Below, one piece after another: positions 11,284 to 32,275 of a stretch of DNA of 64,000 bases (the stretch's first letter is position 1; each line of letters starts with the position of its first letter). Source of the stretch: Lutjanus erythropterus (lineage: Eukaryota; Chordata; Actinopteri; Lutjaniformes; Lutjanidae); assembly GCA_020091685.1 (NCBI GenBank), contig CM034603.1:9158683-9222682 (forward strand), written 5' to 3'. Position numbers and translations under genes: made by a program. The notes under the pieces are model-generated. The model had not been told where the DNA came from and did not search any database. It saw only the letters and a program-made list of their open reading frames with translations.

Positions 11284-11347
<64 letters not shown>

Positions 11348-11356
11348 CAGAGAGAG
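11284..11356. repeat. (GA)n microsatellite
   Basis: A near-perfect GA run with a few interruptions near its right end, immediately upstream of the putative promoter. It gives the SLSLSL/REREREREE artefact frames on the two strands. Confidence 0.95.
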
Positions 11357-11559
11357 GAGGGGGGTGGGAGGTGGAAGGGTTAGAGGCTGTGCCATTGTAT
11401 TTTCAACTGCAGTTTCTTGAAGTAGTGTTTTCATGACAGGGACATTGACAGGGCCCCAAACAGACAGGGGTCCCTTCAGGGAGGATCATACAGTATTAAT
11501 CTGAAAGCAAAAGGTTAAGGGCTCCACATCAGACAGGAACATTGCTGGATTTTCGCTGA

Positions 11560-11880
11560 TATTTTCTCATTTTGATCAACTGTTGATGCATATGATTTCG
11601 ATTTGATTCCACTGAAGCGCCTGCGATCGATATCAGAAGATATCGTGTCCATTTAACACATTCAGTTGCATTTACGTCAAGTCACAAAAAAGCAACTAAA
11701 CTATGAATGACAGTTTCATGACTGAACTCTTGCAGACATTTGTGTCACTGACATGCCCTGGGAATTTCAAAATAAAGTCAAATCTTAAAGATGTAGATCA
11801 ATATTTTCACTTTGCATCACCCTGGATTGTTGAACACTGCATTGATATATATACAGATCTATCTATTGTTACACCCTAAC
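11560..11880 (-). mobile_element. MITE copy 1, inverted relative to copy 2
   Basis: Read on the minus strand it begins TAGGGTGTAACAAT and continues through TGTTCAACAATCCAG, GCAAAGTGAA and TTTATTTTGAAATTCC. All of these recur in the same order in the plus-strand copy at 12195-12520. There is no coding frame. Confidence 0.7.
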
Positions 11881-12194
11881 CGATATATGCACAGATTTTT
11901 TTTTTTTTACATCAAGAGGTAAAGTCCCTCTCCTTTCAGTAGACCACCGTGACACCTTACTTTAAAAATGGCATGAACAGTAGACAGTGGAGAGAGAGAA
12001 ATTCTTGATCTCCATTTGAATCGTGCCCAAATTACAGTTTGACAATTTAAAATATTATTTTACAAGTTAAGAAAGTCACCGTTAGTCATAAGCTGTTGAG
12101 GCATAATACAGTGAAGATGTGATTGAAACTACCCACTTAACGGTGGCATAAGCAACGTCATGACTTTCTCTATCTAAAAACTAACATTAGCTAC

Positions 12195-12520
12195 TAGGGG
12201 TGTGACAATGCATCAGTGTGGATCGATATATTGATTCTATGTTCAACAATCCAGTATGATCAATGCAAAGTGAAGATATCGATCTACATCCTTCTGCAAG
12301 ATATGCCTTTATTTTGAAATTCCACAAATGTCTGACTGAGTTCAGTCATAAAATTGTAGAATCATAATTAAGCTGTTTTTTGTGAGTTGGTGTAAATGTA
12401 ACTGACAGTGTTGAATAGACACATAATATTATGTTATAAATCTCAGGCCAAATCATATTCATAATCATATTGTGATTGTCCAAAAAACCAATATAATATT
12501 GTATCGTGATGAAACTTGTG
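12195..12520 (+). mobile_element. MITE copy 2, inverted partner of 11560-11880
   Basis: Starts TAGGGGTGTGACAATGCATC and carries the same ordered blocks as the minus-strand copy, including TTTATTTTGAAATTCCACA and GAGTTCAGTCATAAAA. The two copies lie about 315 bases apart, head to head, and are moderately diverged. Confidence 0.7.
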
Positions 12521-13329
12521 AGAAGCTATAACACTTGTACTCGTTCTTTGTCTTCCCAGTTGATTTCAAAATAACAAAACTACTGCTAAAAGTTTCTTTC
12601 TCATGAAAGATGATGATGTAACATTTGTTGGGGTCTACACTAAATGGAAATGTTGAAGAGATGAAAACAGAAAGTAACAGCACTAATTTAGGCATACAAC
12701 ATGTTTAAGTGGCACTGGACTACTTAAACTAAATGATCATTTGTCTATTATTAATTTGATATCAGTATATTAGTTTTTTTAATTATCATGGTTATCAATA
12801 ATGGTTTATTACATCACTCCTGTTTGTCACTTGTAACTAATATTGTGATTTCAATAACCTAATTTTTGATCAGTTGTGCAGACTTACTGTGACACTAGTC
12901 AGTTTATTACTTTGAATTAGTTCTTGAGGAGCCCATGTTGATTGGCTAGTAACAGATGAAGGGGATCTGAGATTGCTTAAAAAAATAAATTAAAGATAAC
13001 ACATACTGATTAGTGCTGGCACCACAAATAAGTATCAGAATGACACATGCATCAATCAATAAGCAATAAATGTTACACAACAGGGGTTTTTACCTTGGAG
13101 GATGTCTCGTTAACTCTCATCCAAATCAATCACTGACAACATTTAGATGATGGTCATTAAGCAGATAACACAATCAGAAATACACACAGGCTTATGTGAT
13201 CACAAAATAATGAATCTATCCAAATATTACACTGCAATTTTAAGAGTTTAAAAGTTCAAAGTAATTATTTTCATTTTTGTGAAGGCTGTTTTTAAGAAGC
13301 CCAAAATTTTCATTATTAAATGTTCATCC
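12521..13329. other. AT-rich intergenic DNA, no gene seen
   Basis: No frame with splice signals, no RNA gene and no clear repeat borders. Confidence 0.5.
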
Positions 13330-13455
13330 ATCTATCCATCCATCCATATCCGCTTATCCTCTGAAGGGTTGTGGGAGAGCTGGAGCCGATCCCAGCTGAC
13401 ATGAGGCTGAGAGGTGGTCTGGATCGGTCACCAGTTCATCACAGGGCTGACACAT
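13330..13455 (-). mobile_element. RTE-type LINE 3' tail fragment
   Basis: ATCCATCCATATCCGCTTAT, then GGAGCCGATCCCAGCTGACA and CACCAGTTCATCACAGGGCT, are hallmarks of a very common fish retroelement 3' tail, here on the minus strand. Related fragments are at 32155-32275 and 47276-47520. Assignment to RTE is from memory of the family. Confidence 0.6.
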
Positions 13456-13833
13456 GTAGACAAACATTATTAAACATTAAGAATTAACTAAAGAAATAAT
13501 ACATAATGAAATAAATAGTCATATTAAAAATGCAGTAAAACACATAAATGGACCTGTTCTCAATTCATTTGTTTGTAATTCATTTTTATTTCATTCTAAT
13601 CCCACTATTTCAATGTATCTTTTTCAAAAGTTCTCAAGAAGTTGTTTATATTTCATAATAGTACTTTCCCAATGGCAGCCCCCCCATCTTTTAGCCAATC
13701 TTTTAGGTTCCCCAGCCGTCACCAGCTGTTTCCACAGCTCTAACTAGAGCAACAACAACAGTGAAATAGTGTTAATTCTCAACTAGAGGCTGCTGCTGTA
13801 ATTACACACAGTCCACAGTTACAGTACAATATA

Positions 13834-14037
13834 GACCCTTTTCACAGCAGCCATATTGAAATGAAATAGTAGAGTAAACACAGATGTGCACCAAAGTCTT
13901 TCCAGTGAGTAACCATGTGTAATAGCAGCCCAGTGACTCTGCTTTACCAACAACAGGACCTTAATTAGTATAATTAGTAACGCCTGTGTTTACACTTCTA
14001 ACTATTTCATGTCAATATGGCTGCCGTGAAAAAGGTC
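13834..14037. mobile_element. 204-base foldback MITE with TA target duplication
   Basis: The left arm starts GACCCTTTTCACAGCAGCCA and the right arm ends with the inverted form, TGGCTGCCGTGAAAAAGGTC. The arms match over about 53 bases. TA flanks both ends (13832-13833 and 14038-14039), pointing to a Tc1/mariner-type mobiliser. No coding frame. Confidence 0.8.
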
Positions 14038-14335
14038 TATGTCTAACCTCTCTCCTTATCCAGCTAAAGAAGGCTACACATGCTACCTAACTAGCAAGCT
14101 AAATAACTATCTGTCAGCTTGGACTTACCATTATTACTCAGCATTAAAGTGAAGAGCTCGTTTTAGGAGCAGCTGCTGACCTGTTAACTTGCCTGGCAGT
14201 GCTGTGATTCTTAAGATGTTGTCAGAGAAAGACACAACAAAAACACGAAGAGGCTGTCCAAAATTAGTCCCTTGTTCACTTAGTCACTACTCACTATTTG
14301 AGAAGGATTTCTTAAGACTTTCTCTTTGGTCTAAA

Positions 14336-14882
14336 GCAGGGGTGGGCAATTATTTTTCATGGGGGGCCACATGAGAAATTAATCAGGCTGCTGTGGGCCA
14401 CAGACAAATGATGTAAGGTCCTAATAATGGCCAAATCTACAATAATGGAGTGGTCAGAAGTGCTCTGTACAGGGCACTTCTACTGTTGGTCACCTTTTCT
14501 GAATTGCAACGTAATGAACCGTGAGCAAATATTTAGTTGGCAATGTCCAAAACTTAACGTTTCACAGTGGACCGTACAGGCTGCATTGACAGTAACAGCA
14601 AAACTAGAAGTTGAACAACATAAACAACATGCATGTACAGCACTGAGTGAATCAAGTTAGTTAAATATAAAAAATACACTGTTATTATTATCAAAGAACA
14701 CTGCACTGCACCCTTTCAAAATAAAGGTCTGATAATGTAATGTAATGGCAAGCAAAATGCTACTGGCTGTCTTTGCTAGACTTTTAATTTTTGGCATTTC
14801 CATGATGGCCTTACAGGCCACAGGAAACCTCTCAGTGGGCCGCATCTGGCCTCCAGGCCACATTTTGCCCAGATCTGGTTCT
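14336..14882. mobile_element. Non-autonomous hAT element
   Basis: The left end is GCAGGGGTGGGCAATTATTT and the right end carries TTTGCCCAGATCTGG, the inverted form of the CAG..TGGGCAA terminus. The 8-base sequence GGTCTAAA is present exactly on both sides (14328-14335 and 14883-14890), the target duplication length of hAT transposons. Terminal GGGGGGCCACATG-type motifs match common vertebrate hAT families. No intact transposase. Confidence 0.85.
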
Positions 14883-14890
14883 GGTCTAAA

Positions 14891-17415
14891 AACAACTATT
14901 AACTAACTAGCTAGTTCAATAACAGTTTATCCGTTGGGAGGCAGAGGGCAAACGTGATTGGCTGAAAGGTGAAGGGGTGGTCCCTGATGACTATCATGAA
15001 AAGTGAAAATTAAAGCAGACCTCAGAAAAAGAGCATTTCAAAATAAACGTTAACTCTAATGTCTCTGTTAATATGGAAATAATGATGAAATAAGATTTCA
15101 TGTTAATGAGTTTTACATAAATGTATTAAACAATTTCATAATTTACTGGTTCCCATATATGCTTTTTTCATTTTAGTTAACCTAGAAATCCTAATTGAGA
15201 TCTTTAAAAAGTGTGTCCTGACCAAAACAGACATCATAATAACAATGTTCAAACAGGATAACACAATATATGAGGAAATAAACATAAATGTGATTACAAA
15301 ATAATGAATAAAACTTCCAGTACAATCATAAAAAAAATATCCTAGGACACTTAAATTATAGCATGAATTGCTGTCTAAAACTCTAGAAATAAAAGGAAAA
15401 AAAAGGTAAAAAATGTACTGAAAAATTCAGGTTAACAGGTTATCAAGATTCTAATATACCCCGAACATCAGCAGCCAGAGGAGCACATTTTCTGAAAAAG
15501 ACCACATTTTGCAATTTTATGTCCAACTGCAGGAGGTTCCAGGCGGAGCGAGAAGCATTCATATATAAAGCTCTTTTACCTAGTTCTGTAATGGAGCTAT
15601 AAGTCTGATCACCAAATGGAGGTCAGACTACCTGACGTTTTCATTTCCCTCTGGACTACTGATGGCAATCTGGCCGTGATGGCTCCAAATTCTTCTGCCA
15701 GATGAACAGGGAGGTGCGCACGTTCTGTCGGAATGAGAAGAGTCCAAAAACGTAATTATAAAAAAAAAATATCCAGGATTAGATCATTAAAAAGGCTTTC
15801 ATGTGTCAAAACATTCAGCTAGATTCTCATATTCCCCTGTGTCTGCCTTTTTTTTTTGACAGGAAATAAGCAATTATTTATTTAAAGAGTGTTCAAACTA
15901 TAGCTCCTCACAGAAAAGTAACGCTTTTATTATGTCAGAGCAGAAAGTTGATTTGATGTGGTTGATAAATGTGTTTTCATGGCAATATTTCTGTAATGAT
16001 GTGAGGACATTGAGGGAATGGAGCCATATATCAAATAGTTTCATTCAGTGCCTTTCTCCTCCGAGTTGTGAGATCACCGCTCATGGCTGTGATAGGATTT
16101 GGGATGGGAGAATTGGGGGGCCAGGTTGAAGCTCAAGCTGTAAACTAACAATGATATATGATTCACCCACTCATCTGAATGGCTGCTACTTGTCAATGTC
16201 ATCGCTTATGCAACGCGGTTCAGCTGTTTTTCATGGACGCAGCCAGAATTAGACCAGAACTGTTAACCCTTCTGGTCCCATAGATCACTTCTTAATATGA
16301 CAAATGGGCTTGCGAGGGCGCAGATGAATGGGGTCGTGGAGGGTGCAGCTGTGTCTGGTGTCATTTCCAAAAAATTGGCCCTCAGAGCCTGTACAACAAA
16401 AGTGCAGCGTCTGCTGCATTATATGCATGTGTGCATGCGTGTGTGCATGTTTGCGCATGTGTGTGAGAGACCTTTGTGTCTGCGTCTTAGTGATACTTCA
16501 TTCTGATGAAAGAAGACCCAGTGGGGGGCATCATGCCAGCGAGAGAGGGGGTGGGGGACGCTGAAGGAGAAAGGAGGGGGGCCAAGGCAGCTCGAATAAG
16601 AGGTTTATAGTCTGGGGGACGTTTGCTGTCTTCAGGTTTCATTGGGTTAAAAACTTCAGCACTGTTCAAAGATACACTTGAAAAGGCGTTCCATTATTTA
16701 TTCATCAATGCGGCATCTCAAAGACAGGAGCCGAGATGCTCAATATGCCCTCAATTACTTGTCTGTCTAGGTACTGTATGTGCATGAATCTGCTTACATA
16801 AAACAATGCTGGAATAAAAAGGGTTTTCACAAAGGCGCTGCTTCTCAGGCAGCAGCACTGTGTTTAAAGCAGACAAAGCTCGTGTGAGAAACAAAAAGGA
16901 AACACTCATTTGTTGAAAATCTGTTCTGCGCTCCTACTTCTGCAGACATTTGGTAGTCATTTGGCAGGCGATAACTACACGAGACAACGCAACATCTGTG
17001 CATGGAGGAAGTGAGACAATCCACATATCACAGAAACACTTAGGGAGGCAGTGAGGAAGAGCTGGAGAAGAAGAAGAGGAGGGTGCAACACAGTGTATAA
17101 TACACTGGCAACCACATCCAGTCTATAACAGCCAGCGGATATAAAAGTGTTAGCAGCCGCCGCCTCACTGTTCTTCCTGATGTCAGTAATAACTCAAGAT
17201 GATGCTTCAAAGCAGGCTTTCAATCTGCTCCCAGCATTCACCACAGGCTGGGTTCTCCTCAGCAGATAGAATGTGCTAGACTGAGTAACACTCGGCTCTC
17301 AGGCCGTGCGGCAGAGCTATGATGCACTGCCCTCATCTGGTCGAACGCGGTAAACATCTATCCCACGGCCAGAATATTTCATAAAAGCAGAAGCCCTGTT
17401 CTGAAATGCAAAGTA
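14891..17415. other. Intergenic DNA, no gene seen
   Basis: Mostly unique sequence. The part from about 15930 to 16290 is non-repetitive, moderately GC-rich and rich in TF-site-like words (GATAAATG, CAGCTG, CTAATGG), so it is a candidate conserved non-coding element. A 16430-16480 GTGTGTGCATG stretch is low complexity. No exon was recognised. Confidence 0.4.
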
Positions 17416-17423
17416 GCATGGAT

Positions 17424-18488
17424 CAGTGGTTCTCCAGTAGGGGTCCGGAGATCCCCAGGGGCCCGTGGTATTCTGCCAGACTCATTCATGTATATTATGA
17501 GGATATGAAAATTACTGATTTATTTCTTGGTTTTTTTGGTTGGTTTGTTTTTACAAAGGGCTCCGTGATTCAACAAATAATATTTTAAAGAAGAAATCGG
17601 TAATATATTTACTGTACAAAATCATAAATAAAATAAGTCATCAGAGATTAAGGAAACATGCTAAGCTCACTTCACTGACAACAACGCTACGGCCAGCATG
17701 TTCTCAGGCCCGTAATGAGAGTTCAAATTAATGCAAAATGTTCACAGAATAACAGAGTAACTGTCTGTTTATGAATCATAAGAAATCACTGATAATCTTC
17801 TAGAAGATTATATTGAGCACTATGCTAATGGAGTCTGGCAGGCAGTCACTGAACTCTTGTTTTGAGGATAACGGTCTTAACTTTACATTGACAGACAATG
17901 GACAGTTATAAACAGCTGATCAACTTGTGGCATAGGACACCTGTTATTGTCAAATTACAATGTTGTGCTCCTGCAGTGTTCCTGCAGCCTGCCTGAGCTT
18001 CCTCGAGTCTGTGTAGGAGGTGGTGGAGGGAAACATGTTATGTTCTGTTAAATGGGATTTCAACCTATTTGATAAACAGTCTATGGTTCCAGCTCACTAT
18101 CTGGACTGCAATAGGCGCAACTGTTACATGCTGCTCCTTAAATTTTTATATCCAAAACAGTTCTTGACATGCTAATTTAAATCTAAATCTATAGATCTTA
18201 TACCCATCCATCCATACATCCATACATCTTCCAACAACACCCACATGTCACCTATTCATGGGGGAAACCAGCTCTGTCTACATGGGTATTTAGTGTTGAC
18301 GTGGTGAAAATATTTTTAATACACGTCTGCTATCTTTCTAGGATACATTTCTATTGCATTGTTGTTTAACATAGCTAAGTATTAAAAAGGCTATATCAAA
18401 ATATTCCAGGGTTCATACCTACATGAGAGGAGCTATCTTTTCTCTTATAAGGGATCCTTGGCTAAGAAAAAGAAAAATAAGAGCTCTG
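17424..18488. mobile_element. hAT element with perfect 8-base target duplication
   Basis: The left end is CAGTGGTTCTCCAGTAGGGG. The right end, read inverted, is CAGAGCTCTTATTTTTC and carries the GGATCCTTGGCTAAGAAAAA subterminal motif. GCATGGAT occurs exactly on both sides (17416-17423 and 18489-18496). The 1065-base body has no transposase frame. Part of the body (17575-17895) is homologous to flanking DNA at 18560-18955. Relatives are at 31500-31695 and 45060-45300. Confidence 0.85.
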
Positions 18489-18559
18489 GCATGGATCACT
18501 CTTTCACTGTTAAAGACTGAAATACGTTATTATCACTGTACCAGAAAAAGATCTTGAGG

Positions 18560-18955
18560 AAGTTATCAGACTCTTTATTTAAAGAGGAGATGTGTATTTA
18601 CTGTACTGAATAAAATGAGCAAGATATTTCATCTTAGATTAAGGAAACATGCAAAACTGAAAAAAAGGAAAGCAGCCAACATGACCTTCTCTGAAATTTC
18701 CATTTTGATCCAGGAAAACTGTTTTAGTTTGCTTGTTTTAAGTTAATTGAATGCCGAATGTTCACGCAATGAGTAAGTGTCTGTTGAAGAGTTATAAGAA
18801 ATCATCAGTAATCTTGTAGAAGGAGTAGATGTTTAGAATGCTTAAATTGAGCAATATGTTAATGGAGTCTGCCAGGCAGTGTACCAGTCTGGTACAGTGG
18901 GCTTTTGTTTTCAGGATAACAGGGTTAACCTTACATTGACAAAATAAAAATGCTC
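18560..18955 (+). mobile_element. Older, truncated copy of the same hAT family
   Basis: It shares ordered blocks with the interior of the 17424-18488 element: AGATTAAGGAAACATGC, ATAAGAAATCA, TTAATGGAGTCTG(C/G)CAGGCAGT and TTACATTGACA. It has no intact termini. It directly follows the intact element, either as a tandem older copy or as the copy into which the younger one inserted. Confidence 0.7.
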
Positions 18956-20488
18956 TATTAATAGCAAAATCCTACTTTATCACAATTCTAATGAGAAAAA
19001 TGTAGGTCTACTTCAAATCTGAAAAGTAAAAGTACATGTTCTGGAGAAAAAAAAAACTGTTGCAGTAAGTGTGTTTTTGTACATTATGTATTTAGATTGT
19101 TGCTGATGCATCAGTGTATAACATTTTACTGTTGCTGCTGTTTATGTTTAGTTCCCAGTGGACCAAACTGGATCTTGTCCAGTGCTGCCAGATTTGGCTG
19201 ACACCAGGTAGCCCAAATCCATGCCTCAAACCCACCAAATGACCATAAATTATTAATTATGATCTGTGAGAGCAGAAATAGGATTGACATAAGGAACTGC
19301 ACAACATTCAGCATTTTGAAAAATAAAATATAGTCAGACTCTACTCAGATATGCATGATAATGATGTGATGTTTTCATAGATGAGCTTGTTTTTAGTGTT
19401 TTATACTTGTCTGGTTGTATCATTAGTTTAAGATTGTTAGGACAAAGTGTTGTGATACATTTCTTCCAGTTTCTTATTTCTCTTCTTTTCAACTTTATTA
19501 TGTAGGAAATTCTTTTTATCATTTGTCATCTTTAGTTGTGTCGTGACTGCGGGTGTAAATTAGCTGTCGAGCTAACCCCAGCATATTTACACTGATGTTA
19601 TTAATGTCAGTGTTGATTAATGTGCACCGTCTCATGAAATAAATAACAAATAAACAAAGGACTGCAGTTTTTATTTATACATGTGTACAAATATATATTC
19701 TGTGGCTGATAACAAGACATAAGATGTGCCTGTGGTCCTCTGCTTTGGTACAGACACGTATAATTAGCTTTTTAAAAAGCTTTTTCAGGGTGAAAGGAAA
19801 AGTTTTCAGCCCAGTTTAAAGGAACTAAAGTGAATATTTGCCTTGTCTGTCATGTCAGTCACTGGTGTCGAGCCTGTTGAACTCTTTGTCAATCTCACTG
19901 ACAGACACAGTATGTACCAATTGAAGAAGAGGACAGGAATATAGTCTAATTTTTCAGTGGGGAATCCAGCCAAATGGTACAAAAAATAAATTATCACAAT
20001 CTGCCCAAAAACATGTTTACCTGCCAATCAAGTAAAAAGGTAGCCAGATTTTGGTGGCAACCTCCCAGTCTGGCAGCACAGCTCAGACGTCCTCCAGAGG
20101 TTCACAAGATAACTCTGAGGGGTCCTGGTTATTATGGCAGGGAAGAGGACAAAAATAAAGTTTCGTGACATGAAATTGTGTTTTTTCTCTGCTTTTTTTG
20201 TGTATGATTTTACATTATTCAGTTACTTACAGGATAAATGAAACCATCTAAACTTTTGATGATTTGTTTAGTGCCATTCACGCTCAGCTGTGACGGACTG
20301 TAAAAACTGCATCAAAATGCACATGTGTTATGTGTATGTGGATGGGTTATTAATTTGCACCACACTGCTGTAGGCCACATTTACACAGAATTGCTCTGTT
20401 TGTGAAATAACAAATATATATGGAAATACTTCATCTTCGTCTTTTGTGTCATTCAGAGTTGTGATTAAAGGTCGCAGAAGATTTTCAG
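18956..20488. other. AT-rich intergenic DNA, no gene seen
   Basis: Contains a repeat-like CCAGTGCTGCCAGATTTGGC segment near 19176. A small stretch around 20050-20140 is more GC-rich and reads as a Ser/Gln/Thr-rich frame but lacks a donor. It may be an upstream exon or repeat of the putative locus that follows. Confidence 0.35.
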
Positions 20489-20719
20489 ATTTCTAAAACT
20501 GGCCTGCAGCATAATTCAGAGAAGGGGAACGTCTCTTTGGTGAAACTGGCGCCAGTGCGCTCCATCAGAAGCGCTCGTCAGATGGTTAAAGATACCTCCC
20601 ACACGCAGACCCTTCAGATGTCAGATATGTCAGACGCGTCTGACATTTTCTGTAACTTTCTGAAGCCGACGATCGACATTCACATCAGTTTCACGCTGTG
20701 GCTGGTCAGCTGCGCCGAG
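20489..20719 (+). CDS. Putative internal coding exon, unknown protein
   Basis: A 231-base open block is preceded by TTTTCAG and followed by a strong GAG/GTGAGA donor. The frame is phase 0 at both ends and gives 77 codons: it starts ISKTGLQHNSEKGNVSLVKL, continues APVRSIRSARQMVKDTSHTQ and ends FTLWLVSCAE. It is GC- and CpG-rich (GCGCTCGTCAGATGG, GACGCGTCTGAC, CCGACGATCGAC) within AT-rich DNA, a base pattern typical of coding sequence. I do not recognise the family. A short hydrophobic stretch (HISFTLWLVSC) lies near the end, with no clear domain. No convincing upstream exon was found, so this may be a gene fragment, the tail of a fast-evolving gene, or a transposon-captured exon. An acceptor further upstream at 20456 is excluded by an in-frame TGA. 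Confidence 0.4.
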
Positions 20720-20837
20720 GTGAGAAAGTAAGCAGTGTTTGAACTCCTGTCTCTAGTTCATTTTTCATTTGTTACACCAGCTATTTGTGGTATTTTTCAT
20801 GTGTACAACTGTGTGAAATACTATGAATTCCTTCCAG

Positions 20838-20894
20838 GAGAGATGGTCTGAAGGAGTGAGCTGTTATACCCTTGTTGAAGAAGATAAGATATAA
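20838..20894 (+). CDS. Putative terminal exon, stop-containing, unknown protein
   Basis: CCTTCCAG ends at 20837 and the next base opens 18 codons plus TAA in the phase left by the 20489-20719 exon. The peptide is ERWSEGVSCYTLVEEDKI. The 118-base intron between them is short but within the normal fish range. No clear polyadenylation signal lies close by. Support is only the matching phase and good splice borders, so chance remains possible. Confidence 0.3.
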   Translation, partial: ERWSEGVSCYTLVEEDKI

Positions 20895-22068
20895 AGACAT
20901 CATGCCCCACTATTTGACCCTTTCTGAGTCCCGCTCCTGTTTTTCTCTGTACTCCGATAACAGATGAGCAAGCTGGGTAGCACAGTACATTCTTCTATTA
21001 TTAGATAGCTTAAAGCCACTACAAGGAACTTTCATATTGTGTTGATGTTTGGAAGCAACATTTCTACCATAATAACCACACAATATAAAAATAAAAATAA
21101 TTCATTTGAACTGTGACTTGGCCTGATAAGACAAAGGTTTGTTTCAAGTGATTTCATGGATAATCCTACCTAGTGGCAGACAGGAATGACTGTACATAAA
21201 CAGCCTGCCTTCTTGCAGATGGTCTTGTTAACTTCTGTAGAGGCATCAGCATTAAACTGACATTATTTCATAACCAGTTAAAAAATTCTTGTAGTAGCTT
21301 TCACTTTTACACACTCTAAAAAATAATACCCTGGCTCAACTTTTAAAAAAATTAAGGTAACAATTTGCATGGATCTTTTTAAGTAATTCCAACTCAGCTA
21401 TGATTTGAGTAAATCCCACATTAATTACCAGCTTAACAAAATGTGCCAGCTGCCTATCTATCCACATTATTGAGCAGACTGTTAAATGGAGAAACAAGTT
21501 TCACTTAAATGTTGTAATGCCAAATCAAAGAATAACTCTAAAATGTTACAAGATGCAAAATTAGAACAATGGCACATACCTAATAGGAATATTAGCATAT
21601 GTAGCCCACCCACTCAATTCCAGTTTGGTTTAAGTATACAGTATAGACCTTTACATTATGTACACACTATTGCATGCGAGGTGAATTGGTGAGTACTACA
21701 AATATATTAAATTGGGATGTGAATACAGTTACAAATCTAGGTATAATACTCCTACTAGGGTGCACAGAGGCCCAGTTAGATTATTAATTTGCTATACTAT
21801 TCGATGTGAGTATTAACTCCCATTATTATTTCATCACCCTATAGCCATCACCTTCAACCATGAATCACTTTTACACCACATTAGTTACATCATTATCAAA
21901 TATGAATCAATGTCAAAACACAGACTCAATGCAAAATTAGAAAACGTTTTTTTCCAATACAATGAAAATGAAATAAAAACAATCTGAGGTTTTTATTTAC
22001 TCAGTTTATGGTATCATGTACGTTGGAGCTCATGTGTAATTCTCAGAAAGGTTGTGTCTTTAACTCAC

Positions 22069-22236
22069 TGTTCCTTGTAAACGTCGTTAGAGTTGTTAGT
22101 AACAGTCTGGTCAAACCCTCCATCCAGCGGCCTGCTGAGTGATGAAGAAAACCCGTCCTGAAGCTCAGTCTGTGTGCAAAAAGCAGGTTTCTTTGCTGTG
22201 GCAAGTGCTTTCCACACGCTGGCTCTCATCAGTCCT
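22069..22236 (-). CDS. Gene-like exon inside the CACTCTAA element, possible mitochondrial presequence
   Basis: Read on the minus strand, TTTGCCAG precedes the exon and GTGAGT follows it. An ATG at 22229-22227 opens 53 codons beginning MRASVWKALATAKKPAFCTQ and ending NDVYKE plus two bases. The first 20 residues are basic, alanine-rich and free of acid residues, like a mitochondrial targeting peptide. Base composition is far richer in CpG than the AT-rich element around it. No following exon was found to the left, so this is a 5' gene fragment, either captured by the transposon or belonging to it. I cannot name the parent gene. Confidence 0.4.
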
Positions 22237-22320
22237 CTGGCAAACGAGGGCGAAAATTAGCTAGGCTAACTAACAACAGTCCACAAGTGCTACAGCATAT
22301 GTGCTAACAAAGTTACTCAC

Positions 22321-22351
22321 TGAACACTTGCTCCAAAGTCATCTTATTCCT
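22321..22351 (-). other. Putative 31-base 5' exon, non-coding or uORF
   Basis: On the minus strand TGTGAACAG precedes AGGAATAAGATGACTTTGG, and GTGAGT follows at 22320. Its ATG gives MTLEQVF and then runs into a stop just inside the next exon, so it would act as an upstream ORF rather than the start. Confidence 0.35.
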
Positions 22352-22451
22352 CTGTTCACACAGGGTACAAACTCTCCTAAAAAGCCCCCGGTTTTTAACT
22401 TAGGCAGAGACATTAAGTTAACAGCATAAAATGAACTAGCTAACCACTCAC

Positions 22452-22575
22452 CATGTCTTTATTTCTCCGTCGTGTCGCCGTTGCTCCGTCTGCCGCTCGC
22501 ACAAACTTTTAGTCCCGCCCCTAAAGGAATACGGTAGGCTACAGCGTTCATCTCAACTCGAACAATGATTGGCTG
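22452..22575 (-). promoter_or_regulatory. Promoter-like block and first exon inside the CACTCTAA element
   Basis: The minus strand carries an inverted CCAAT (ATTGG at 22568-22572), a GC box (GGGGCGGGAC, complement of 22512-22521) and then CpG-rich sequence ending at ACATG/GTGAGT (donor 22451). Spacing and order fit a TATA-less housekeeping-type promoter with a short non-coding first exon. The element may therefore carry its own promoter. Confidence 0.4.
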
Positions 22576-23020
22576 ATAACAACAAATTGACACCTGGCTA
22601 CCCAATACACAAACAGAAAGCACACTTGAGGAGTTCAAGGTCCACGCAAACCGAGGGAAATTTCATAGTAAAAGTAAACATTTCTTCATCGTAATGGCCA
22701 AAAGTCACTGTATGCACAGTGATAAAACTGAAATACATTCCAAAAAATCATGTAAACGAAATTAATATGGTACTACATATATATAAGTGCTCATGTTAAT
22801 GTAACATTATAATCATGATGTGATTAGTTTTCTTAACTAAGCCTTTTAGTCATTTAGCTGCCACTGTAAAACAAAATATAAAAAAGACTAGGGCCTACAC
22901 AAGCAAGCTAAACTTTAATAGGTGGAACAAGCTACAAAACCATAGTGTATAAAAACTATTTTTTGCTTCTTGTATCGATATAGTCATTAGCTGTTGCCAG
23001 TAAAACAGAAAAGTACTCAC

Positions 23021-23125
23021 CAAGTAGATGTTCAAAGCAAACTCCTGTTTTTCTCCCTCCTTTCTCTTGTGGCAGGCGCGGTCTGGGAGCAAAACAAGTC
23101 TGGGCAAATTCAAATCCTTCTACTC
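23021..23125 (-). other. Exon-like block near the right end of the CACTCTAA element
   Basis: On the minus strand an open stretch (MNLPRLVLLPDRACHKRKEG and on) runs into a CTTG/GTGAGTA donor at 23020. It may be the element's own leader exon. No acceptor or partner exon was identified. Confidence 0.3.
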
Positions 23126-23383
23126 TTTTTTAAGTTTGCTCACTACATATTCAAGCTGCTCTAACTTAATTCTTTCTGTTGTTGAATAATGGCAGAAATG
23201 TTTGTTCAAAACCAAGATATTATTGAGTTAAGACAGCTTTCTTTGTTTTAAGTTTGACCAACTTCATAAATTAAGTTATCAACTCATTAAAATGTGTACA
23301 TGTAACAAACTTCATTTTGTAAGCTGAAAAAGCTCTTGATTTTAAGCTATAATTACTAACCCCATGAATCATTTCTTAGAGTG

Positions 23384-24110
23384 CAGGTCCCCCAGCAACA
23401 TCTGTCAAACATCTCAAATACTTGGTTTCCTTTTTAACATAGACAAGCCTAATACAGAAGATGGCAAAGGCATGTCCCGGCCTACTCTGCCTCTGATTGG
23501 TTTACTCTGATATTGTTCACATTTCTCTATCCAATCACACTCCTCATGCTGAAACCTACTTGCAACCTACATAGACTTAAAATAGAACTTGACAGGGCAT
23601 TGCTGCTCAGCCTTGTTGCCAATGTTTATCCAGTGGTCACTCGCGGTTTTGCGGCAAAAAATTCCCCACCATCACCCATAGGCCACTGTCACGGCTTCGT
23701 CATCCTGGAGAAAAAAATGCATGCAGGAAACAGGAAAGGAGAACTTTGACAGAGGTGCCAAGCTTTCTCAACTGTTATTGGAGCACAGAGTATAAAGGGG
23801 GCAAGACTTAACAAGCGGTCAGTTCAGATCAAGTTTTAACACATTGGACTTTTTGAGCATAACCTGACACTAACAATTCTCAGACATCTGAAACAGACAG
23901 CGCTTTTTTGCAAGTGGATACTACTGACAAAGGTCGGGAGCCACAGGTTTAACGTTTAACAATGTACTGTCTTGTGTTTTATAAACTTGTCGGCTTGTTT
24001 TTTGTGTAAAATCTTAACCAGGAAAGTAACCAGTAAGTCCAACAAATGTACCGGAGTAAAAAGTGAAATATCTCAAAGTACAGTACCATGTAGTAGAAAT
24101 ATTGAAGTAT
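23384..24110. other. Intergenic DNA, no gene seen
   Basis: Contains a segment at 23770-23840 (AACTGTTATTGGAGCACAGA) that recurs in diverged form at 38622-38690, so it is probably an old dispersed repeat. No exon seen. Confidence 0.4.
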
Positions 24111-24118
24111 AGTACAAG

Positions 24119-24848
24119 CAGGGGTGGAAGTAACTAATTACAAATAAGTAGCTTGTACTTTTATGAGTAGATTTTTAAGTCTGTCCTTTTACTTGTGCTT
24201 AAGTATTTATTACACTATGTTACTTTTAAAATCATAATTGAGTACTGAGTACAATTTGAATTAACATTCAAACTTTCATCTGCTTTTTTGTGTCCAATCA
24301 GGTGATCTGATTGTAAGTGAGCGAATGTGACACATAACATAATGAAAAATAACACACCACAGCGGCACAGGTTTGAAATAAGAATGCCGCTGGTTACTGA
24401 TTAATCATTAATTGCAAAGAATTTAATCAATTAAAAATGTATTAAAAAGTAATTAAGCAAATGGCAGTGATGTCTGGTGGAATCATTTGTTGAATCGGGA
24501 AACTTAAAATGAAAAGAAAAAGAAAAAAATATGTATGATTAATTGATTGATGGCGTTTTCAATGTTCAGTTAAGGAAAAATACACAAAATGTGCACCCCT
24601 GGTTTGGGAGTAATTTAGAGTGAAGATTTGGAGAAACAGAAACTCCTTTGACTGAATGTTGCTACTGAGGATACATTTAACATCAGTGATTTAAAAGTAA
24701 CTGATACTCTGAGAACTGACAAGAAAACTTTGCACTTTTACTCAAGTATTTTTTACCATTTGTACTTTTATGTGTAATTGAGTAATATTTTAGTAATGTA
24801 ATGGTACTTGTCGTTGAGTACAGATTTTCAGTACTCTCTTCACCACTG
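24119..24848. mobile_element. 730-base hAT-type MITE
   Basis: The left end is CAGGGGTGGAAGTAACTAAT and the right end inverted is CAGTGGTGAAGAGAGTACTG. The flanks carry AGTACAAG (24111-24118) and AGTATAAG (24849-24856), an 8-base duplication with one change. Internal TACTTTTACTCAAGTA motifs match a very common fish MITE family. No transposase. Confidence 0.8.
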
Positions 24849-24856
24849 AGTATAAG

Positions 24857-26090
24857 TATGACCTTGCTCAAAATACTGTGTTTGAATGAAAGTACTCTGT
24901 TACAAAACAACCCAGCTATCCCACATTTTCACACAGCCACTGTAGGGTTTGACTCCCATCTATTTTTGGGGCTTCCCAGGAGCATAAAATTTTAGCTGAC
25001 CTTCACAGCAATGACTCTGCTTGAGAAAAGCGAATCCACAGCAGCCAGTTGCTAAATGAGCCTGCATACAGATTAAGAGGGAGTGTGAAACAGCTGGCTA
25101 CACAGGGACAGCTTGACTGTCTGCATGCGCCGCTCTCCACCAGAGGCTACACGCTCTGCTTTGTCAGGGTCCCTGCTGTTACAAGACTTTATTTTGTCTG
25201 ATTCCACTCTTTACTGCATTGGCGCCGCAAGAAAAAAAAAAAAGATAGCGAGCCAGTGACTTATTGGAAGTAACGTGGAAGATCACTTTTAAGACCGGAG
25301 AGTGGATAACAGCATGAGCTGAACTCTCAGGCTTTCTATTTCATGGCTCCACTGATCTGTTAATGTCACACACCAAAAAGCTGAAAAGAGTATTGATTGG
25401 ACATGATGCCTAAAGGGCTTCACTGTCCTTCTCCCGACAACTTTGAGGTCTTAGATGTCTCATAACGGGCAGAATTTGACATCATGCCAGAACGGGAGGA
25501 CGGGTGAGACCCTCACTTGAATAATTCTCAGTCATGATGCTCGCATCAAGTTTTGAACCATTTACTGTAGCGACAAGTTAGAGTTTGGTGGTGTGGCCCT
25601 GCTACTGAAATGCTCCAGACACGAATCTAAGAAGGCTTGACACAGACTGTCCCTGAGCGCGCAGACCCTCAGGCACAACTTTAGATACAAAGCATCTGAA
25701 AGAACACAAATCCATAGAGAAAAATGTCCGGAAATCACACACATCTAAATGCTAATGCAGGAGGAGGCTGGGGAAGTGAAGGGAATACAGTATAAAGATG
25801 TGAAGTAGCACCAAGGATCAGTGCTGAACATTAGACTTACAAAAGTTCTGTGGTAATTAGATAGTAGGTCGTGGTGATATATGATTGGACCTTATATAAC
25901 CTCTGATATTAAAGCAATTGTACATGAAAATTTCCCAAAAAGAAATCCTGGGTCATGGCCTGTATACTGGCCTTTTTTTTAAAGCTTTCAACCACATCTC
26001 AAGGTCTTCATGAACTGATGTTTCCAACTTGTCAGAGAGATAGTTCTTAAAAATCATGTAAAGGGAAAAACACATTATAGATTAAGGAAA
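24857..26090. other. Intergenic DNA, no gene seen
   Basis: Unique sequence of ordinary composition with no splice-bordered frame and no recognisable repeat borders. Confidence 0.45.
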
Positions 26091-26094
26091 AAAT

Positions 26095-26345
26095 CACTCT
26101 CCCGCCTCCAAGTGGTCCAGCAGCGAGGCTTCTTACTGGCTTCCTGGCTTCCCTCCTTTGGCTTCCTGTATGTCTCTGAGAATTGATTTTAAGATTTTAC
26201 TGATCACTGGGTCTGGCCTCTAACTGCGTAGCTGAAATGTTAACCTCTTATGAATCAATGCTCAGCCTGAGATCGTCTGGCTGGGCCCTCCTGGCTGTTC
26301 CAAAGTCGAAGCCTAACTCTAAAGGCGGCCGCGGTTTCTCCATCT
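26095..26345 (+). mobile_element. L2-type LINE, C-terminal ORF fragment
   Basis: The plus strand encodes, in broken frames, HWLPV.LRIDFKILL and then SLRSSGWALLAVPKSKPNSK-GGRGFS, the conserved segment just before the end of the L2/CR1 reverse-transcriptase ORF. Stops and a missing final block show it is dead. An L2-like 3' tail ending in a TTA microsatellite lies at 27089-27180, beyond another LINE fragment. Confidence 0.65.
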
Positions 26346-26564
26346 TCTATTTTATTAATTCTTATTGTCATGTTTTTCCTGTTTTTCCTGTGCTTATCTA
26401 TTTTACTGTTTTGTATTGTCTTACTATGTTTTAGAGTCTTTTGCTTGTGTCTTAGCCTTGTCTTATTTAGCTTTATTTTAGTGTTCCTGTCTGGCCTAAC
26501 TCTGTTGGCCTTCTGTTGTTGAATGTGGCTTCTCATACCTTTGGCTGGACCAGAGGTGTGATAA

Positions 26565-27088
26565 TATTACCTGGCTGAAGTTTACCATTGAGCAGAGGTT
26601 AAAAGATAAGTCCCTTCAGAAGTGGCATAATGAACTCCAGAGTATGTCATCATGTGATTTATATTGTGAAATCTACTGTGTGAAAACAGAAGGTACTCCC
26701 GGGCTATTTGCAATTTCCGTGTTTCCAGTAGCAGAATCCCAAAGATAACAGGAAGATATAACGGACTGGAAAGGAATAAAAGATTTTGTACTTTATGTAA
26801 TGATAAATTGTTGGGGGATGAATATCAAGTTTTGTTTCAATGTAAAAATTCCATCCATCCGTCTATGTTTAAAACTGCAGACACGTAAAACTAGAGTAGT
26901 AGGTAAATCAGGTGCCTTTCTAAGCAATGTCCTGCCTTTATTTAAATGACCTAGTGTGTCATATTGATCTATTCCTGTTGTTTACCACTGTGTTTTTGCT
27001 CTATTTTATGTTTGTACTACATACCATGTTGTATTGTCTAGAGTAATGAAATAAACTTAAACTTGAAACTAGAAAACTTGAAACTAAA
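26565..27088 (+). mobile_element. L1/Tx1-like LINE 3' end, probably nested in the L2
   Basis: The fragment reads QRLKDKSLQKWHNELQ early and, in another frame, ERNKRFCTLCNDKLLGDEYQ, the zinc-knuckle tail of L1/Tx1-type reverse transcriptases. It is followed by a TTTGTATT-rich 3' UTR and an AATAAACTTAAACTTGAAAC tail with a degenerate ACTTGAAACT repeat. Frameshifts make it inactive. Position between the L2 ORF remnant and an L2-like tail suggests insertion into the L2. Confidence 0.6.
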
Positions 27089-27144
27089 CTTGAAACTTGT
27101 TATTTTGCCTCATTGTAAAGTTTTCAAAGGTGCTATGTAAATAA

Positions 27145-27145
27145 A

Positions 27146-27180
<35 letters not shown>
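27145..27180. repeat. (TTA)n microsatellite at LINE tail
   Basis: About 12 TTA units directly after AGGTGCTATGTAAATAAAG, the usual terminus of fish L2 elements. Confidence 0.9.
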
Positions 27181-27181
<1 letters not shown>

Positions 27182-28308
27182 CATGTTAGAAAATAGTTGC
27201 TGAAAATGTGAAAAGACTGAGTACTATGTGGCACTGAATTGTGGACTGTTGCTTGCATTTTCTGTGTTCAGGCTTTTTTTTGGACAGACCTGAAACATGG
27301 CTCAGTGATGCGTTGGAGCCATGGTCCCCCAACACTATGTAAGCCCCATGAACTGAATCACGAACAACACTGACACACACTGTTGGAACTGAAGTGAGCT
27401 GAAGTGAACTGCTCGGCTGATTTGGACTGAGAGGGTTGCTGAAGGTCCGTTCGTAGCTGATCATTAGGGGGCTGAGGTCGTTTGTGTTCGTGTGACTTAT
27501 ATAGTGTCGGCCATTTTTAGCTCTGCCCCAAAAATCCTGGACACAAAAGTCATGAACAACAGCTTACCAATTTAACTCCAAAATACAGTATTACATAGTT
27601 CTCAGTCTTTCTTTCTTTCTTTTTATATACATATATATTTTAGGGGAGGCTTTTATGCCTTTAATTTCAGACCAAAAGATAACGAATAGCTCAGCCTACT
27701 TTGAGGGAAGTAGAGGTATCGAAAGCAAGTAGAGTTAAGCCCATAATGGAAAGGAAACACAACTTTACCCGTAACTACACTGTTGACAGTCACATTTGTA
27801 ACAGGCAGTCCGATGGGGAACACTTGAAACCACTCCGGTGTTGCCAAATTGGCACCTTTGTCACTAGATGTGACAACTTTTAAGGTCCCTTTTTGCAACA
27901 TTTTTTTCCAAAAAGGGAGCCCGGTGACAAATCCATTGATTTTTGGACAAATATTTGCTGCTTTCCCTTGAAGAGAGTCAATAACAGAGCTCAGTAAATC
28001 TGCACTCCTCCTGTCTGTATCCAGAGAAAAGGAAAACACACAGCAGCCACGTGAAAACAACGGCATGAGTGAAAACTGCAAATGATCTCACCAAAGGGTT
28101 TCCTTCACTGTCCAGGAAAACTGCACATGCTTAGTGTTGCCTTTAATGTCAGTATTGGTTGAAATATTCTACTCTACAAGCCGTTCAGGATTCAGAAGTT
28201 TACTTTATATAGTATATAGTCAGCAACATAATCCAAGTTTCACAATATTGAAGTAATGTAACTTTATTTCAGTTACTTTTTGATTTTTTTAGGGCTAATA
28301 TCATGTTT
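27181..28308. other. Intergenic DNA, no gene seen
   Basis: Contains CTTT-rich low complexity (27606-27625). The 142-codon minus frame at 27653-28081 has no splice signals or recognisable domain and was not called. The part 28190-28280 resembles a dispersed repeat also seen near 47960-48030. Confidence 0.4.
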
Positions 28309-28769
28309 TTAGGGTTGCAGCTAACAATTGTTTTCATCATTGATTAATCGGTTGATCATTTTCTCAGTTAATCAATCAGTTGTTTGGTTATTTTGTATTA
28401 AAAAGTGACTCAAAATGATTAATCAATTGATTAATTGTCACCATCACAATCTTGTTGAAAAGTCTTGACTGTAACAATTATTTTCACCATTGATTAATTA
28501 GTCTTTCTGAATTATTTGTTTTGTCCATAAAATGGTGAAAAGAAAATGGTGAAAAATGTTGATGAAAGTCCAAGATGATGCAGACAAATGTCTTGTTTTG
28601 TCCTCAACTCAAAGACATTCAGTTTACTGTCACAGAGAGTGAAGAGACCAGAAAATATTCATAGTTAAGACGCTGAAATCACAGACTTTGGCCATTTTTT
28701 AATATATAAAAAAATGATTAACTGATTAAAATAGATCAAAATACATTAATTTAATAGTTGCAGTTCTAA
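28309..28769. mobile_element. hAT-type MITE with TTAG..GCAGCTAAC termini
   Basis: Left end TTAGGGTTGCAGCTAACAAT, right end inverted TTAGAACTGCAACTATTAA. The interior GATTAATCGGTTGATCATTT, GACAAATGTCTTGTTTTGTC and TCACAGAGAGTGAAGAGACC are typical of a very abundant fish repeat. The left portion is partly duplicated inside the copy (28390-28505). Confidence 0.75.
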
Positions 28770-30469
28770 GTGTTTTATGTTTGTTGTTATTGGTTTGTGT
28801 AACTGTTCCTCCCTTTGTTATGCAGAGTTATTGATTGATTTATTGATTTAGTGCAGTTTTCACCAGAGGCCATGATAATGAATTGACAACTGTGTGTGCA
28901 CTGTGCATGGTAGTATATCGTTCTTTATTTTACAATTATAATCCTACTAATAATCCCACTTTTTGCTAAAACTATCTGTAATCTGATTACATCTTTTTGT
29001 TTATTTGTAACTGTAATGGAATATAGTTACCTTTTTTATATCCAGATTACATAATCCACAGGTTACATGTAATCCGTTACTCCCCAAATCTGAAGCCAAG
29101 TGATCTGAAATCCAAACAGCTAACAGAATAAGGCAGCCGTACATGTCGTTTTGTGTTTAGAAGAACTTGGGTATAAAAATATGTATTTGTCTCCGATTTT
29201 TATCTGTTTCACCAAAAAGGTTATCTGATCATTTCTGTCCATCTGTGTTTGTTTTCTTTGTCTGTGATCAACATATTTTGAAAGCTAATGGACAAACTGG
29301 CATGAAATGTGTTGTGTACATTCACACTCCCACCAGAAATCATCACCATCAGGCTGCACTTTGGCTACTCTTATATAACCAACATGTTAGTACAGTGCTG
29401 ACTGTGAAAGTAACTGCGAGGGCTATTAGGTTTTAGTGGAGGTCTGCACTCTGTTGACTGTGGTTTTGTCTGGTAACTTTAACAACAATGGCCTACTGTC
29501 TGGTTGTGATATAAACTTTACCGAGTCATTCCTATCGAGTCGAGACCCTGGAAAAAAAAAATCAGAGGCGTTCAGCAGCAAGGTTTGAGTCAGAGCAAAT
29601 AATGATTTCTGGTCCTTGGCAGAAAGGAGGAGGAAATTGAGGTTCTTGGAAAATATGTGGTAAAAAGTGAATAGAGTGGTTGTAATGACTTAGAAAGTCC
29701 ATAAATGTATTCAAGCATCAGGTTTAATATGTGCATAGCTTGCATTAGCTGAGGGTGAGAGTTTAAGAGTGGCATGGTTAAGTACACTCCATTTAAATTA
29801 ACAGCATAGCTCAAGTGGAAGAGTGCGTAAATGTTTATGCATTTAAGGACAGAACTCATGGGTGTGTGATCAGTGGTTGTTGCAGTGGATGATTGCATGT
29901 CTACCTTACAGTGGTTTATTACAGCAGCTGCTGTATTAAAAAGTCTCTCTCAGTCTGCACATATCGTCCTTGTCTTTCAGCTCAAGTTTTATCTATTTTA
30001 ACAGTCCTGCTTACGAACATTCAGATATTTGTGAGTAGCAGCAGATTGCAGTATAACAGGTTGTGGTTCTAAAAATTAAATCACATCTGCATAACAATCT
30101 GCATGACATTAATCAAAGACTGTTACCATGGAGTCAATAACACTGTGTGTTCACCTGAATGACTTGTTTAACAAGGATGAATACTATACAAATTTACGCT
30201 ATTATGACTGCATCTGCCTTTGTTCTCATCCTTCACTGCAAACAGACACTTCTAATTGCACTTTATGATATTTCTCATGGTTAATAGAAAAAACATTAAC
30301 GCCCCCGACAACAAATATGTTTGGCAGGATGACAAAAAAATTTTTTTTTAGTGAAAAATGTGAATAGCACAAGAGATCAGTATTTTATGTTACCCTTAAG
30401 CAAAACATTTTTTAAATACATATTGAATATTTTCTTTTATTTTATATTTTTTTAAAAAGTGACACCCTT
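28770..30469. other. Intergenic DNA, no gene seen
   Basis: 28970-29090 ends CATGTAATCCGTTACTCCCC, the terminus of a common fish repeat also visible near 60946. The rest is unique AT-rich DNA. The 102-codon minus frame at 29590-29898 has no supporting signals. Confidence 0.4.
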
Positions 30470-30958
30470 TAATATTTGGTTGGACCACTTTTAGCTTTGA
30501 TTACGACACACATTCACCTTAGCATCATTTCAATAAGCTTATATGCAATGTCACAACATTTATTTCTGTCCAGAGTTGCATTAATTTTTCACCAAGATCT
30601 TGTATTGATGATGGGAGAGTTGGACCACTGAGTAAAGTCTTCTCCAGCACATCCCAAAGATGCTCAATGGGGTTCAGGTCTGGACTCTGTGGTGTCCGGT
30701 CCATGTGTGAAACATGATGCCTTGTGCTCCCTGAAACACTCTTTCACAATTTGAGCTCAATGAATCCTGACATTTTGATCTTGGAATATGCCCGTGTCAT
30801 CAGGGAAGAAAAAAATCCATTGATGTAAAAACCTGCTGATTCAGTATATTCAGGTAGTGAGCTGACCTCATTTTTTGGGCTCATAATGTTGCTGAACCTC
30901 GACCTGAGCAACTGAAGCAACCCCAGATCAACGTTTTTTTTGCTTCTGAATTGGGGCA
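30470..30958 (-). pseudogene. Tc1-like transposase, 3' fragment, degraded
   Basis: The minus strand encodes the C-terminal half of a Tc1-family DDE transposase in broken frames. FFLPDDTGIFQDQNVRIH corresponds to the block holding the second catalytic Asp, and TPQSPDLNPIEHLWDVLEK is the diagnostic Tc1 motif with the third acidic residue. They are followed by LPSSIQDLGEKLMQ. Stops and small indels occur throughout and the DNA-binding half is missing. Directly to the right a hAT-type terminus (AGTTTGAGAACCACTG, ending 30984) shows that another element abuts it. Confidence 0.85.
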
Positions 30959-31239
30959 TGCCATAAAAAGTTTGAGAACCACTGGCCTACACAAAGGTAA
31001 AGGTCAACTTTATTGTGACATATACAGTTTTACACTGTACAACATACAGTGAGATTCAGTCTCTGCATTTAACTCATTTAGAATTATGTGCAGTGGGAAT
31101 CTTTTCTTTTAAATTTTGCCAGTGGCAAGTCTTGAGTCTCCCTAGGCTATGAATGCTAAATCCAAAAAAGAAAAGTTAATAGCTGTGGCTCCAGACAGAC
31201 TGTTACCTCTGCCAGACTGGAGGAGATCATGCAATCGGT

Positions 31240-31258
31240 TGTGTGTGTGTGTGTGTGT
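31240..31258. repeat. (GT)n microsatellite
   Basis: Short uninterrupted GT run. Confidence 0.9.
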
Positions 31259-31499
31259 ACATTTATGACTGTATGCTCAAGACATCTCGTGGTTCTGGTG
31301 ACTAACAATTTTTGACAAATTCTACTGAATGCAACCCAAATTACCATGATATTAAGTTATTTATTCATTTAAATCTAATAATTTAATTAACCTACTTACT
31401 TAGTTACTTCTTTACACCTAGCTGAATAAACCTCTTGGATGAGAGGTGAAATGTCTCCAAGAAACTCACACTACTTTTATACACACGTTTTTCTTTTCC

Positions 31500-31695
31500 A
31501 CAGAAATTTTATAGGCCTGTCAAATTCAAGTCACAGGCTAAATCAATTATTGTTCTTTTCGTGTGTTTTTTTAATTCATATTATATCACATAGAAAGGCT
31601 ACATCAAATCATTCGAGGGGACATACATGGGGGGGTCCACAGTACATTATATATAAGGGGTCCCTGGCTAAGAAAAAAAAAACTGAGAACCTCTG
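31500..31695. mobile_element. hAT fragment, relative of the 17424 element
   Basis: Right terminus ACTGAGAACCTCTG at 31695. The subterminal GGGGTCCCTGGCTAAGAAAA and AGGCTACATCAAATCATTC blocks match 18395-18480. The left end was not found. Confidence 0.6.
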
Positions 31696-32154
31696 GTATA
31701 TATTAAGACACACAGACATGCTGTACATAATCATACACTCCATGTATGTAAACCCATTCAGTAGTAGTAATATCTTTGCATTTGTATTGTTGTACTGTTT
31801 ACAACACTTGAGTTGGAATAGATTTTTATTTTTATTTTGCTGCTTTTGTTGATTTTTATTCAGTACACCTTTTTTTCACATACTTGTGTACATACTTATC
31901 TTTTCTTGGCCTTCATTTGTTCAGTTTTGTTATCCTTGTTCTGAGCTGTATGTCTATTCATGTCTAAGTACACTAGGGACAATGAAAAAAAAACCTTGTG
32001 TATGCGTACACATACCTGGCCAATAAAGCTGAGTCTAATTCTGATTAATATTAGATCATAGCTGGATACACTCATAATCTATAAGTAGTGAAAAGCAGTA
32101 TTCGTTCAGTTCTTAAAAATCAGTAATCAGTGAGGAGCCTAGTCAGCCATACCT
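31696..32154. other. Intergenic DNA, no gene seen
   Basis: A LINE-tail-like segment (TTTTTATTTTGCTGC to CCAATAAAGCTGAGTCTAAT) lies around 31820-32040. No gene. Confidence 0.35.
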
Positions 32155-32275
32155 GCAGCTCCTCATTTATTCACTCATTAATTTTCTTTGCCCATCTGTT
32201 CCTTCTCTAGGGCAGTGGGACTGGAGCCCATCCCAGCATGCACTGGGTGGGAAGCATGACTGGACCAGTTATAAA
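32155..32275. mobile_element. RTE-type LINE 3' tail fragment
   Basis: ATTCACTCATTAATTTTCTT, GGAGCCCATCCCAGCATGCA and TGGGTGGGAAGCATGACTGG correspond to the tail family at 13330-13455, more diverged. Confidence 0.5.

Follow-up and report, generated by a model that had tools for sequence, protein, structure and literature searches.

Does a CACTA-type transposon in the genome of Lutjanus erythropterus carry the captured 5′ end of a host gene? The question is raised by an element in a 64,000-nucleotide stretch of contig CM034603.1 (positions 9158683-9222682; hereafter the window), for which an initial annotation had proposed a Pack-type capture: between the presumed termini, a block on the minus strand combines promoter motifs and a CpG-rich leader with three GTGAGT donors and an ATG, which opens a 53-codon frame resembling a mitochondrial N-terminus. 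The coordinates of the features discussed below are collected in Table 1.

Table 1. Features of the element and its nested unit (positions in the window)
Feature	Position	Strand	Basis
Left 2-bp target-site duplication, CA	21310..21311	.	
Non-autonomous transposon copy of EnSpm/CACTA (CMC) type, internally deleted	21312..23383	-	ends co-recurring in other copies
Left terminal inverted repeat	21312..21329	+	
Deletion junction; longer copies have about 830 bp more	21420..21421	.	copy comparison
4-bp duplication, CATA on plus (TATG on minus)	21596..21599	.	
Nested repeat unit with minus-strand ends TGTAG...CTACA, holding the promoter/exon block	21600..22777	-	empty sites, outside copies
Deletion junction, other copies 128-173 bp longer	22204..22205	.	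copy comparison
AATAAA, candidate LTR poly(A) signal	22458..22463	-	
GC box	22513..22521	-	sequence
CCAAT box (ATTGG on plus)	22568..22572	-	sequence
4-bp duplication, TATA here (one change; TATG on minus in most filled copies)	22778..22781	.	
GTGAGT following a leader-like stretch of the transposon itself, not within the nested unit	23015..23020	-	
Right terminal inverted repeat	23366..23383	-	
Right 2-bp target-site duplication, CA	23384..23385	.	

A family of elements with recurring ends

The element begins with CACTCTAA at position 21312 and ends with TTAGAGTG, the last base of which is 23383, and its gene remnants are oriented along the minus strand. The two ends match in inverted orientation at 15 of their first 18 bases. 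Judged from the window sequence by itself, this terminal match is weak (two such terminal pairs in the window versus none or one per Markov shuffle, n = 10). A search of the assembly to which the window belongs (937.6 Mb, 444 contigs) with the 2,072-bp element returned at least 74 matching stretches, with 40 of the 77 candidates scored, and 20 matching places were fetched (L009-L028). The CACTCTAA...TTAGAGTG ends were found to co-occur in other genomic copies, the flanks of which are unrelated. Since both ends recur together in copies from its own genome, we conclude that the element is real, and the termini proposed in the initial annotation are thereby borne out.

At the family cut-off, no Pfam domain was detected in the six frames of 12301-22299 and 22301-32298 or in the three minus frames of 2301-12300, and matches below the cut-off in the frames scanned (2301-32298) were to DUF2187, RM6_Med14 and DDE_3. 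The minus-strand result for 12301-22299 and 2301-12300, together with the recurrence of both ends in unrelated flanks, makes it extremely unlikely that there is no transposon and that the block is a host gene promoter in situ on the minus strand, even though the promoter-like order of the block would suit such an explanation and the terminal match was barely above chance before the genome search. Rfam, at gathering scores, gave no match in 20500-24500; searches of plasmid and phage collections gave no match, nor did the TIR pattern match in viral contigs, and when the TIR letters were used as a literature term, none of the papers listed seemed to be related. Two further stretches near the element were observed. 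At 24124-24220 lies a GGGTGGAAGTAACTAATTACAAATAAGTAG-like stretch, which we take to be a common fish transposon end. To the left of the element, an 88-codon open frame on the plus strand (20465-20728) ends in a donor-like GTGAGA and has no Pfam match; it is possibly due to chance.

Copy ends were compared in 15 rows (14 loci and the window), both ends being readable in nine. Identical 2-bp flanks were present in eight of these nine copies, namely TA in five, TG in two and CA in the window, the single exception being L023 with flanks TG and TT. From an alignment of 13 rows a consensus of 3,059 bp was derived, from which the rows are diverged by 0.028-0.144 (K2P, CpG sites excluded); positions along the minus strand of this consensus are denoted "rc". 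The ends read CACT...AGTG and thus show the CA...TG typical of EnSpm/CACTA (CMC) elements. In addition, for the CMCT clade PMC12730594 gives target duplications between 2 and 5 bp long, a range that includes the 2-bp duplication of the present family. The element can be placed in a non-autonomous EnSpm/CACTA (CMC) family with a length of about 3.06 kb, in agreement with the CACTA-type assignment made earlier.

Non-autonomous EnSpm families are known from fish, and one has p53-response effects on zebrafish genes, as stated in the available part of PMC3485254. Compared by description only, the zebrafish family EnSpm-N6_DR (346 bp; same source) resembles the present family in its CACT...AGTG ends, its short target duplication, its many copies and the lack of a transposase of its own, whereas the present family is far longer and, unlike EnSpm-N6_DR, contains what is left of a second gene and, in addition, a nested unit. 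Two copies that are 76% alike, L019 and L020, jump at rc 355 to a point near rc 2593 and contain neither the gene remnant nor the nested unit; they may be deletion derivatives or an older compact form, and they were given no weight in the question of capture.

The promoter-like block lies within a nested unit

The motifs on which the idea of a capture was built are all present. Specifically, the CCAAT box and the GC box are found on the minus strand, as are the three GTGAGT sites (22451, 22320 and 22068), with a fourth at 23020. Four minus-strand GTGAGT sites in the 2.07-kb element compare with 0.72 expected (P about 0.008), and the plus strand of the element has two. The leader is indeed CpG-rich, with a CpG o/e of 1.0 at 22440-22640, a value attained in 1.7% of the 200-bp stretches of the window. 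The contrast in composition with the rest of the element also holds, because the nested unit has a CpG o/e of 0.60, compared with 0.13 for the parts that belong to the transposon itself.

The borders of this unit became apparent from copies that lack it. L038, a relative with 77-81% identity in most of the pieces that match, aligns with rc 1-441, 452-557 and 576-609 and then straight with rc 1932-2631. Its empty site reads ..GAGCACTCATATATGCTAATATG.., whereas filled copies read ..GAGCACTTATATATG/TGTAGTACCC ... GGGCTACA/TATGCTAATATTCC.. at the unit borders. The same empty site is present in L026, so that both empty copies have a single TATG and one boundary in common. Both unit boundaries are visible in six rows (L009, L010, L011, L015, L018 and the window). 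TATG occurs on both sides in four of them (L009, L011, L015 and L018), while L010 has lost the 5′ flank of the unit and the flanks in the window differ by one base. By alignment of these copies, a unit of about 1.3 kb was shown to lie between 4-bp TATG copies inside the transposon.

The empty copies are not necessarily older, since L026, at a divergence of 0.118 from the consensus, is no more diverged than the filled L011 (0.12) and L018 (0.144), and since the diverged L027 (80% identical) is filled, its match extending from rc 555 into the unit. An insertion is accordingly argued from three observations, namely the duplicated 4-bp target, an empty site common to two copies and copies of the unit outside the transposon, and not from an order of ages.

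For these outside copies, the same genome was searched with window positions 22040-22640. The 32 matches obtained from 22 candidates comprised family copies and seven other loci, and parts of all seven were fetched. L053 contains the unit with both ends (one base changed in each) and internal losses; it lies in unlike flanks, and CAAA and CAAG are found at the unit borders. In L052 and L058 the unit begins at approximately this 5′ base, again with unlike flanks. Only the promoter part of the unit is present in L054 and L055, which are located on two contigs and are 95% identical, as well as in L057, and L056 corresponds to the middle part. A reverse-transcriptase-like stretch and a GGGCCCTATCTTACGCCCGGCGCAAAGC-type repeat were noticed near the promoter part in L054 and L055. 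All seven loci are decayed pieces, and in the stretches examined none has the look of a parental gene that is still intact. Together, the empty sites with one TATG, the TATG duplication and the outside copies indicate that the unit is a nested mobile repeat.

These observations bear on the idea that the block consists of the transposon's own leader exons, which L038 and L026 would have lost by deletion. The block is in sense with the second gene of the transposon and present in most long copies, and a leader-like stretch with a GTGAGT does exist outside the unit; in L037, a stretch matching this leader-like region lies upstream of the first coding frames of the second gene. However, L037 has no consensus match to the unit despite its fuller second gene, the two empty copies have one common boundary with a single TATG, and the unit, ends included, is also found elsewhere than in the transposon. 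We therefore regard this explanation as very improbable. The initial annotation had reserved it for the case that all copies carry the exons and no homologue exists outside. This was not seen: homologues outside the transposon do exist, as repeats.

Is the block a captured gene end?

In a Pack-type capture, the transposon would have acquired a host promoter and first exons in the course of repair, and the outside matches would be the parental gene or its relics. TIR transposons are known to capture genes in animals (PMC8277862): according to the available part of that study, a scan of 100 species gave 370 Pack-TIRs in 55 of them, including eight in zebrafish, the multicopy cases numbered four, in frog and alligator, and only cases with a parental copy not associated with a transposon were kept. 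No literature joining "Pack-TIR" and "teleost" was found. Like the Pack-TIRs described there, the window element has a gene-like block between the TIRs of a known type of DNA transposon. Unlike them, its block has the borders of a mobile element and no repeat-free parental copy was found, the seven outside loci including L053 with its repeat borders.

Although the gene-like order, the CpG-rich leader and the existence of homologues outside the transposon would be compatible with a capture, the 4-bp duplication and the empty sites indicate the insertion of a mobile unit. Furthermore, unlike flanks surround both unit ends in L053 and the 5′ end in L052 and L058, and not one of the seven outside loci resembles an intact gene. 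The check named in the initial annotation, a parental gene with matching exons and introns, was thus negative for the loci found with 22040-22640, and the block that it assigned to a host gene turned out to belong to a distinct repeat, which has ends and a target duplication of its own, two empty-site relatives and copies elsewhere. We consider it likely that the locus is an unexceptional CMC-type element, non-autonomous, in which a repeat, probably LTR-like, is nested. Host-gene capture is not supported and appears improbable.

The reading frame results from a deletion in the window copy

The third exon proposed earlier straddles the junction at 22204/22205. At this position an extra 128-173 bp are present in all eight fetched copies that match both sides (L009, L010, L011, L012, L015, L024, L025 and L027), and the loss of about 165 bp is found in the window copy only. 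In the longer copies the exon-like piece extends past the junction as far as ..CTTCTGA or a similar sequence, behind which four of the eight copies (L009, L012, L015 and L027) have a GTGAGT; this is altered in L010, L024 and L025 and lost in L011. Because the deletion, confined to the window copy, joins two exon-like pieces, the third exon and the 53-codon frame are artefacts, and the presumed mitochondrial N-terminus with them. The length of the frame is unremarkable as well, since the minus strand of the element has two longer stop-free frames, of 74 and 67 codons versus 63. The spliced 63-aa peptide gave chance-level matches only in PDB and Pfam, and for a piece of it no confirmed relative was found in viral contigs. 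After discovery of the deletion, the peptide was no longer read as the N-terminal part of a mitochondrial protein.

What kind of repeat is the nested unit?

Solo LTRs have TG...CA ends and a target duplication of 4-6 bp. The nested unit, with its ends TGTAG...CTACA and TATG on both sides in four of the six rows, conforms to this pattern. On the minus strand, the order of the CCAAT box, the GC box and AATAAA suits an LTR, and the three motifs would then be LTR signals. Our preferred class for the unit, with odds that are about even, is a solo LTR left by an old element, either an LTR retrotransposon or an endogenous retrovirus. Solo LTRs of the Gypsy or endogenous retroviral type share with it the TGTNR-type TG...CA ends, the 4-bp duplication, and the CCAAT and GC boxes followed by AATAAA. 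The unit differs from them by about 1 kb past AATAAA and by its donor-like sites, and no LTR pair around an internal region was seen among the copies examined. About 1 kb after AATAAA is long for an LTR, a length which this assignment leaves unexplained, and a plain LTR does not explain the donor-like sites retained in the diverged L027, L052 and L053.

Conceivably, the same nesting could involve a non-autonomous DNA transposon with leader exons of its own, for example a Ginger-like one, which we regard as possible but rather unlikely. The available part of PMC2836005 describes TGTNR-type ends for both Gypsy LTRs and Ginger transposons; the ends and the 4-bp duplication of Ginger elements agree with those of the unit, and the donor-like sites retained in L027, L052 and L053 would also be in favour of such an origin. 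However, TIRs of 40-270 bp (Ginger1) and 50-180 bp (Ginger2) are reported there, and the unit is without long TIRs, the inverted similarity past TGTAG being attained in 7.9% of shuffles. The order of CCAAT box, GC box and AATAAA, moreover, suits an LTR.

A second gene near transposase genes

Long copies of the family have two last exons on the minus strand, at rc about 2143-2230 and 2324-2586 (assigned by eye). These are missing from the window copy, from which they were removed by the loss of about 830 bp at 21420/21421. An 87-aa translation from the last exon matched 59 places in the same genome, and the last exon was matched in two frames, which indicates that some copies are broken there. 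A fuller second gene is present in L037, which has a TIR-like left end and family matches near both ends.

In L046, the second gene lies behind a 902-aa ORF on the same strand. The motifs of this ORF (DDF 375, ADN 466, CRFC 487, HHFLEH 698 and RFE 721) follow the order of those in CMC transposases, as described in the accessible part of PMC12730594. At two loci, L046:1213-7720 and L042:6313-9900, a transposase-like ORF (902 aa, with a C2H2-like start) was observed to precede the second gene on the same strand. The second gene has a PB1/coilin-like N-terminus there, with Pfam matches below threshold only, and judging by this arrangement the two loci are apparently a two-gene EnSpm-type element. 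Around the genes of L046, the search for a TIR pair gave nothing convincing. With the 902-aa ORF as query, tblastn gave matches in five of 15 loci (L042, L043, L046, L048 and L050) and none in L037, L044, L045 and L047; the best E value in the window was 0.5, and the window copy does not contain a CMC transposase. The ORF itself gave weak zinc-finger matches in Pfam and PDB and nothing in NCBIfam, and no family name was obtained.

Three loci, L044:5776-8777, L045 and L047, contain an element of about 3 kb that is 97-99% alike, a similarity that suggests recent movement in this genome. These elements have the ends CACTGAAAAAAATG...TTTTTTTCAGTG with equal CA or TA flanks, and the last exon of the second gene lies inside.

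Since its relatives lie near CMC-type transposase genes, the gene is best read as the second gene of the transposon group to which the window element would belong. What speaks against this reading is that neither a TIR pair around the genes of L046 nor a transposase match in L037, L044, L045 and L047 was obtained. That its last exons are part of a captured host gene was considered and rejected, the same gene being found near transposase sequence in L042 and L046. In fish, proteins that end like the second-gene product presumably carry the annotation "sterile alpha motif domain-containing protein 3-like". In the titles and opening lines of abstracts of the papers listed, no link between a sterile alpha motif gene and EnSpm was apparent.

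Discussion

In the history that we propose, the unit would have inserted once in an ancestor of the transposon and would then have been carried along as the transposon moved. The transposon itself would have been mobilised in trans by a CMC transposase. Other loci of this genome appear to encode a CMC-type enzyme near the second gene, the last exons of which are kept in the long copies, and the 902-aa ORF may be directly linked to the mobilisation of the window family. The nested unit is in sense with the second gene, between the leader-like stretch of this gene and its remaining last exons. It is a doubtful extension of this history that the unit gave the transposon a new CpG-rich, spliced promoter from another repeat, that the family spread with this borrowed promoter, and that some copies now act as alternative promoters of fish genes.

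These findings eliminate one possible instance of a fish CACTA element having captured a gene. They also illustrate how a nested repeat can mimic a capture, with a promoter, a CpG-rich leader, splice donors and an open frame that arose from a later deletion. The second gene near CMC-type transposase genes in relatives of the element is a by-product of the analysis and maybe the more useful result. If the likeness to "sterile alpha motif domain-containing protein 3-like" proteins is true, some such gene models would be transposon genes.
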